Assembly: GCA_023268355.1 (NCBI GenBank)
Contig: JALNJK010000003.1
Location: 124,001-188,000 of the forward strand
Direction of reading: 5' to 3'
DNA from: Candidatus Terraquivivens tengchongensis
GTDB lineage: Archaea; Thermoproteota; Nitrososphaeria_A; Caldarchaeales; Wolframiiraptoraceae
Length of the DNA stretch: 64,000 bases
The position numbers and the translations under genes were made by a program. The notes under the pieces were generated by a model. That model ran no database searches and was not told the origin of the DNA. It worked only from the letters and a program-made list of their open reading frames with translations. Positions 2,310 to 64,000 of this stretch are shown here, one piece after another (the stretch's first letter is position 1; every line of letters starts with the position of its first letter).

Positions 2310-2396
2310 TCTGCATGTCGTTAGAGTTCGGACTTATATATTTTAAACAACAATAAAATAACGAAAATTAAATAAGGGCTGTTGCCATAATGTGCT

Positions 2397-2464
2397 AATG
2401 GTGGCGATGAAGAACCAGAGTTACGCGGATTAGTGACGAGGAGGCATTTGTCGGAGCCACCGTT
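2397..2464 (+). ncRNA. Box C/D guide sRNA (dual guide, predicted 23S rRNA targets)
   Basis: The sequence folds as a symmetric archaeal C/D sRNA. A 9-bp terminal stem pairs 2397-2405 with 2456-2464, with one G-U pair. Box C is ATGAAGA (2407-2413), D' is CGGA (2426-2429), C' is GTGACGA (2433-2439) and D is CGGA (2452-2455). Both guides are exactly 12 nt: ACCAGAGTTACG before D' and GGAGGCATTTGT before D; the D'-C' spacer is 3 nt. From memory of the conserved 23S core, the guides complement GTAACTCTG and CAAATGCCTC, which lie close together in the helix 69-71 region. That predicts methylation near E. coli 1913 and 1938. A TATA-like box (aattaaataa, about 2367-2376) is about 25-30 nt upstream. The D boxes differ from the usual CTGA. 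Confidence 0.8.
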
Positions 2465-2497: not shown

Positions 2498-2857
2498 CTA
2501 CGCACCGAGTATGAAGAACGCAATGACTATGCCGTAGATAGCCAAAGCCTCGGCGAACGCCGCTACTATTATAGCGGTGGTCCTTATCTCAGGCCTCTCG
2601 GCGGCAGCCGCCAACCCAGCCGAGCCGGCCCTCGCAATACCGAAACCAGCCGATATGACAGCAACGCTAAATGCTATGGCAGCAGAAAGTGTCTTTGGGA
2701 AGAGCTCTGGTACTTCTTCTGGAGCAGCGGACACGGGTGTCATAAACGATACCAACAAAGAAAGTGCAAGCAAGGACACAAACGCTAGCTGACCGATAAC
2801 ACTTGACTTTAACACTCCGAAAGCACCTCTTTCGCGTGAGGCTTTCATGCTCAGCAT
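2498..2857 (-). CDS. atpK: A-type ATP synthase proteolipid subunit K (c subunit)
   Basis: This is the ring-forming subunit of the A-type ATP synthase. The C-terminal two-helix hairpin has the glycine/alanine-rich first helix (AGFGIARAGSAGLAAA) and the ion-binding glutamate in the second helix (AAFAEALAIYG). The N-terminus carries a hydrophobic stretch ending in VSAAPEE, which looks like a cleavable leader as in some TACK proteolipids. An upstream in-frame ATG at 2899 would lie inside the preceding gene. ATG 2857, 10 nt after that gene's stop, is preferred and gives 119 aa. It is last in the cluster atpD, three small genes, atpK. Confidence 0.92.
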   Translation of the reverse strand: MLSMKASRERGAFGVLKSSVIGQLAFVSLLALSLLVSFMTPVSAAPEEVPELFPKTLSAAIAFSVAVISAGFGIARAGSAGLAAAAERPEIRTTAIIVAAFAEALAIYGIVIAFFILGA

Positions 2858-2867
2858 CTTATAAGGC

Positions 2868-3068
2868 TTACCGAAAAACGAGTCCTTTATGCCTCTCAAT
2901 AAATACTACCACAAACACTGTCCAGCACAACGCGAATATGCCCCAACCTAGAATCGAGAATACATTGAGCAAATCAAATACCCTTAGGATTACTAGCAAA
3001 ATTATTGGAGGTCCTGTAAACATTACGGCTAGGAGTGTTGACCTTAGCAGCAGTTCCTTAAACTTCAT
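2868..3068 (-). CDS. Small two-helix membrane protein in the ATPase cluster
   Basis: A 66-aa protein with two hydrophobic helices (about residues 10-30 and 36-55) and a basic tail ending ERHKGLVFR. Its ATG overlaps the upstream gene's stop (TGATG), showing translational coupling. It sits immediately before atpK. No family recognised. Its position suggests an assembly factor or accessory membrane component of the A-type ATPase, which is inference from context only. Confidence 0.65.
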   Translation of the reverse strand: MKFKELLLRSTLLAVMFTGPPIILLVILRVFDLLNVFSILGWGIFALCWTVFVVVFIERHKGLVFR

Positions 3069-16125: not shown

Positions 16126-16219
16126 GGGCCGGTGGTCTAGCCTGGTATGACGCCACCCTGACTTAGACTACGGCTACAGGAAGCGGTGGAAATCCCCGGT
16201 TCGAGTCCGGGCCGGCCCA
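16126..16219 (+). tRNA. tRNA-Val (anticodon GAC) with an anticodon-loop intron
   Basis: The acceptor GGGCCGG/CCGGCCC, anticodon stem CCACC/GGTGG and T-arm CCCGG-TTCGAGT-CCGGG are clear. The anticodon loop is 27 nt, so about 20 nt are intronic, probably after position 36 or 37. Within it CTG/CAG (CCTG/CAGG if the stem opens) and TAG/CTA helices with a 3-nt ACT bulge give a relaxed bulge-helix-bulge with a larger 3' bulge. The anticodon is read as GAC. TATA tatatatcaa is about 30 nt upstream. No encoded CCA. Confidence 0.88.
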
Positions 16220-16322
16220 CCTTTAAATGGAATGTGCGATGTTGCACCTATCATGATCTACTTCATTAAGAAGGCTTATGACTTCTTAGGAGACTCGAGG
16301 TTGGATCTACCAAGCTGCGTCT

Positions 16323-63175: not shown

Positions 63176-64000
<825 letters not shown>

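Follow-up and report, generated by a model that had tools for sequence, protein, structure and literature searches.

Anatomy of the locus

The window (the whole stretch of 64,000 nucleotides that was analysed) contains an intergenic gap between a rhomboid-like gene (minus strand, starting at 2309) and a gene for a subunit of A-type ATP synthase (minus strand, ending at 2498). Within this gap, at 2397-2464 on the plus strand, lies an element with the layout of a box C/D sRNA. The features are as follows.

2362-2375, plus strand: predicted promoter, BRE CGAAAA (2362-2367) and TATA TTAAATAA (2368-2375); kept in 5 of 6 genus genomes
2397-2405, plus strand: 5' strand of the terminal stem, AATGGTGGC; pairs with 2456-2464 over 9 bp (8 Watson-Crick, 1 G.U)
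2407-2413, plus strand: box C, ATGAAGA (consensus RUGAUGA); A at 3b
2414-2425, plus strand: D' guide accagagttacg, 12 nt; predicted target 23S A1913 (helix 69)
2426-2429, plus strand: box D', CGGA; CGGA in 4 and CAGA in 2 genus genomes
2433-2439, plus strand: box C', GTGACGA; its 3b nucleotide, C, is able to pair with the G of D'
2440-2451, plus strand: D guide ggaggcatttgt, 12 nt; predicted target 23S A1938 (helix 71)
2452-2455, plus strand: box D, CGGA; CGGA in 5 genus genomes and CAGA in 1
2456-2464, plus strand: 3' strand of the terminal stem, GCCACCGTT; pairs with AATGGTGGC
2498-2899, minus strand: A-type ATP synthase membrane subunit K/c gene, named from its translation

The stem, the four boxes, the two 12-nt guides and the 3-nt spacer between D' and C' all lie where a preliminary description of this DNA had put them, and both D boxes read CGGA, as it had claimed. 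The description overlooked a further departure, as the terminal box C is also non-consensus (A for U at position 5). Boxes C, D', C' and D follow in order, and the GA of each box and the sheared G.A/A.G positions are unbroken. Each box departs once from RUGAUGA or CUGA (A5 in C, G2 in D', C5 in C', G2 in D), and all four departures map to the 3b or 3n position of a kink-turn (k-turn). The reading ATGAAGA for box C leaves g-A-U as a standard 3-nt k-turn bulge, which together with the 9-bp terminal stem makes the terminal motif k-turn-capable. The alternative reading GCGATGA was dropped, since it would lengthen the guide from 12 to 15 nt and leave no bulge.

A strict search pattern (boxes C, D', C' and D with their spacings, plus a stem of 3 bp or more) matched only this locus in 464 kb, about half of the genome, and nothing in each of five shuffles. 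A relaxed C/D scan returned further candidates in L039 and L030. Another of its matches, L054 +16774, was rejected as a C/D sRNA, since its third-position variation identified it as coding sequence.

The TATA heptamer and the stem are a nearly constant 20-22 nt apart in five of the six genus genomes; in the sixth (L007), no recognisable TATA was seen upstream of the sRNA. From the usual archaeal TATA spacing, transcription is predicted to start near 2395-2398. The ATP synthase subunit K/c gene is no more than 0.5 kb away from the sRNA in all six genomes. The homolog in Ca. Benthortus lauensis (L023 5395-5458) likewise has the ATP synthase K gene about 1 kb away, which suggests that the linkage is old.

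Elsewhere in the window, the 16S gene occupies 63177-64000. The sole 23S gene is on another contig (C1:102845-105917), so 16S and 23S may not be linked. ARAGORN called a tRNA with a 4-base anticodon (ttag) at 16126-16221 on the plus strand, probably a false positive because it is without Rfam support.

Complementarity to the host 23S rRNA

The host 23S gene contains GUAACUCUG, which forms nine contiguous Watson-Crick pairs with the D' guide, and CAAAUGCCU, a perfect 9-bp complement of the D guide that is extended by one further G.U pair. Both guides had been assigned to the helix 69-71 region of 23S rRNA, and both sites are indeed complementary in the host's own gene. By alignment to E. coli rrlB and the N+5 rule, the nucleotides addressed are A1913 (D' guide) and A1938 (D guide) in E. 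coli numbering; they are exactly 25 nt apart, in agreement with the earlier estimate of about 25 nt. The 23S sequences given there were nearly right: the host has GUAACUCUG, and the second site reads CAAAUGCCUU and not ...CCUC, and for this reason the last pair at the A1938 site is a G.U pair. No insertion separates the two target sites in the host 23S.

Fibrillarin, Nop5 and L7Ae are all encoded in the host genome, with fibrillarin and Nop genes adjacent to each other (C8:111839-113298) and the L7Ae gene at C8:82887. We infer that the sRNA would be transcribed from its own predicted promoter, that L7Ae would bind the C/D and C'/D' kink-turns, and that Nop5 and fibrillarin would assemble on them. 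For each guide, the 23S nucleotide opposite the fifth base counted from its D or D' box would then be 2'-O-methylated by fibrillarin, which places the predicted marks at A1913 in helix 69 (D' guide) and at A1938 in helix 71 (D guide). Helices 69 and 71 belong to the inter-subunit and tRNA-contact region of 23S rRNA. Overall, we put the probability at about 0.92 that 2397-2464 is the gene of a box C/D sRNA whose two guides both work, with 2'-O-methylation expected at A1913 and A1938.

Conservation of the guide pair

Among named organisms, the host is nearest to species of Ca. Terraquivivens, which belong to the Caldarchaeales ('Aigarchaeota'). Family searches covered Thermoproteota genomes. BLAST found homologs with invariant guide cores in 15 of the 101 genomes searched, and a covariance model found the sRNA in 42 of the 44 genomes of the order. 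At the level of the phylum, the model had matches in 281 of 398 genomes at E ≤ 0.1 and in about 170 at E ≤ 1e-5 (a hand count from the result table); the weaker matches may be other C/D sRNAs. Pairing of at least 8 bp at both sites was possible for 90 of 100 extracted homologs, compared with 1 of 500 shuffled sequences. Within the genus, the sRNA is 90-97% identical, with guide cores, inner stem and sheared G.A positions kept.

The register of the guides is also conserved. The N+5 nucleotide of the D guide is 1938 in 79 of the 80 homologs with a readable box. For the D' guide it is 1913 in 49 and 1912 in 25 of 75 such homologs. Guides pointing to 1912 occur mainly in the large f7 family (L073, L147-L155 and other f7 genomes), where the predicted methylation moves from A1913 to A1912 because one more nucleotide separates the guide core from the D' box. 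In L131 and L134, the A1938 (D) guide is kept next to an unrelated D' guide, a case of guide re-pairing. The inner pairs of the terminal stem are mostly kept in 14 homologs, with one pair changed from U-A to C-G in four; over these 14 homologs, covariation in the terminal stem as a whole was not above the shuffle control. The guide pair is thus conserved through much of Thermoproteota, and the sRNA is a known kind of RNA that is unusually ancient.

Covariation of guides and targets

In two lineages, the guide has changed together with its 23S target. In G028, the 23S sequence GUAAUCCUG is matched by the D' guide CAGGATTAC through two compensating changes. In G213, the 23S sequence GUAACUCUAA (CUCUAA) faces the D' guide TTAGGGTTAC (TTAGGG), with one compensating change and one G.U pair. 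The D' guide CAAAGTTA stands opposite an unchanged CUCUG target in seven genomes (G067, G081, G072, G051, G229, G391 and G085) and leaves one A.C mismatch; this uncompensated mismatch is common to several families (guides in L105, L112, L113, L114, L118, L123 and L125).

These data bear on the idea that C/D-like motifs came together by chance in an intergenic gap. Short motifs of this kind are common, the relaxed scan gives many background matches, and one of these turned out to be coding sequence. The strict pattern, however, had no match in shuffles, and the phylum-wide conservation together with the guide-target covariation refutes a chance assembly, to which we assign next to no probability.

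Several relatives carry a 23S insertion of about 0.5-1.1 kb near E. coli position 1927, between both target sites (L216/L210 in G005, L217/L212 in G067, L219/L214 in G229, L215/L218 in G051, L220/L211 in G024). The insertion is probably an intron, and one carrier, G005, belongs to the same genus as the host. Since the insertion separates the target sites in these relatives, the two guides would bind two flanking exons. It could be argued that the sRNA is mainly a folding chaperone, clamping helix 69 and helix 71 or holding the two 23S exons in intron-bearing relatives, with methylation being secondary. Such roles have been proposed for dual guides (PMC7994747), and both the distance of 25 nt between the targets and the insertion between the sites in several relatives, G005 included, speak for it. 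Pairing alone would not need a register, however, and the N+5 position falls on A1938 in all but one of the 80 readable homologs; moreover, the host 23S is without an insertion between the sites. We therefore regard a mainly chaperoning function as unlikely and prefer the sRNA as a methylation guide.

The CGGA boxes and the kink-turns

Of 15 parsed sequences of this sRNA from the rest of the family, 14 have CTGA as box D and the other one has CCGA. A search of relatives for CGGA D boxes, suggested in the preliminary description, found CGGA or CAGA in this sRNA in all six genus genomes, while the sister genera have CTGA. Two other conserved C/D sRNAs of the host, L041 (-) 11313 and L027 (-) 2520, have CTGA as box D genus-wide. 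The CGGA change is therefore restricted to a single RNA of a single genus. The suspected lineage-specific C/D kink-turn is only partly borne out: CGGA/CAGA is genus-wide in this sRNA, but a k-turn class of the lineage is not supported, as these two other host C/D sRNAs keep CTGA. The guides of the L027 sRNA match 16S rRNA, and one guide of the L041 sRNA matches 23S rRNA near its position 2217.

The C of box C' had been taken as a compensating change for the G of D'. The C'/D' 3b.3n pair is C-G in three genus members (the host and two relatives) and U-A in one, but the remaining two members have C.A and A.G, so that pairing is not maintained and the proposed compensation does not hold for the genus. 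At the terminal motif, 3b.3n is A.G because box C carries A for U at position 5, and there is no compensation there.

Both D boxes are non-CUGA in all six genus genomes, and the boxes might accordingly be taken as signs that the sRNA is in decay in this genus and on the way to losing its L7Ae binding. This is very improbable, given that guide cores, inner stem, sheared G.A positions and promoter (the last in five of six genomes) are kept at 90-97% identity, and that the substitutions are confined to 3b.3n. The worst ion-folding pair at that position, G-C, still folds with L7Ae when placed in Kt-7 (PMC4382518). By published k-turn rules, the CGGA boxes should leave protein-driven folding intact. 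The unusual D boxes amount to a small local variation at a position that tolerates change.

The terminal motif resembles Kt-7 of H. marismortui in having A.G at 3b.3n and C:G at -1b:-1n (PMC4382518, PMC5689011). It differs from Kt-7 in 4b:4n, which is G:C here as in box C/D, and weakens ion-driven folding; a study of box C/D k-turns reports that C:G at -1b:-1n promotes and G:C at 4b:4n impairs such folding (PMC5689011). Archaeal C/D k-turns mostly have U:U at 3b.3n, unlike the A.G found here. Judged by the same rules, the terminal k-turn may be foldable by Mg2+ alone, and it is predicted to be more ion-foldable than usual, whereas the internal one (C-G) is not. That one genus has changed its terminal k-turn to A.G at 3b.3n offers a natural experiment for the published folding rules.

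Comparison with known guide RNAs

The sRNA reached none of the Rfam gathering cutoffs (best archaeal model sR14, 28.2 versus 38 bits), and no family of Rfam release 15 holds the A1913 and A1938 guide pair. It has in common with Rfam sR families (e.g. sR14, sR17, sR11) the box order, guides of about 12 nt, the dual-guide layout and the length. End-to-end alignment with sR14 (28.2 bits) and sR17 supports its assignment to the archaeal C/D class.

Among eukaryotic families, SNORD15 (RF00067) can be aligned over the stretch that begins with C' and ends with D, where GAGGCAUUUGUC is identical; the score is 13.4 bits, below its cutoff of 75. The guide plus D box of the sRNA, GAGGCAUUUGUCUGA, is identical to the SNORD15 consensus except for the D-box G. 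Of 18 archaeal homologs tested, 8 also have a SNORD15 match in this register, the best at 20.2 bits, again below the cutoff of 75. U15 is much longer than the sRNA (its model has 146 positions). U15/SNORD15 and yeast snR13 (clan CL00045) have the same target adenosine as the D guide, A1938 corresponding to yeast Am2281; two papers give the A1938-equivalent adenosine as the U15/snR13 target (PMC3511168, PMC5199042).

In yeast, the guide for Am2256 is snR63, and that for Am2280/2281 is snR13 (PMC5199042). The offset of 343 between yeast and E. coli positions is our own numbering, and the 25-nt spacing agrees with it (2256 to 1913, 2280/2281 to 1937/1938). snR63 thus has the same predicted target as the D' guide, but it is a separate RNA and is likened to the sRNA by target only. 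Yeast uses two separate snoRNAs for these two sites, and the archaea studied here use one RNA.

A SNORD15-like guide could arise from the conserved target alone. Tentatively, and with more doubt than confidence, we consider that the A1913 and A1938 pair may represent one orthologous sRNA since the Thermoproteota ancestor, with a D half homologous to eukaryotic U15/snR13. If true, this would make it one of a very small number of snoRNA families that can individually be followed from archaea into eukaryotes. Hoeppner and Poole were unable to assign individual eukaryotic snoRNA families to the archaeal ancestor, and the passages drawn on here give no archaeal counterpart of U15/snR13 (PMC3511168). 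The guide-pair family is a direct test case for this question.

The sRNA is functionally ordinary in kind, and what merits follow-up is its deep conservation and covariation with the target. In a review of archaeal C/D sRNAs, guide evolution is described as accelerated, with no methylation site common to all seven species compared (PMC7994747). Against this picture of fast guide evolution, the guide pair described here is kept across much of a phylum and tracks the 23S rRNA through compensating changes.
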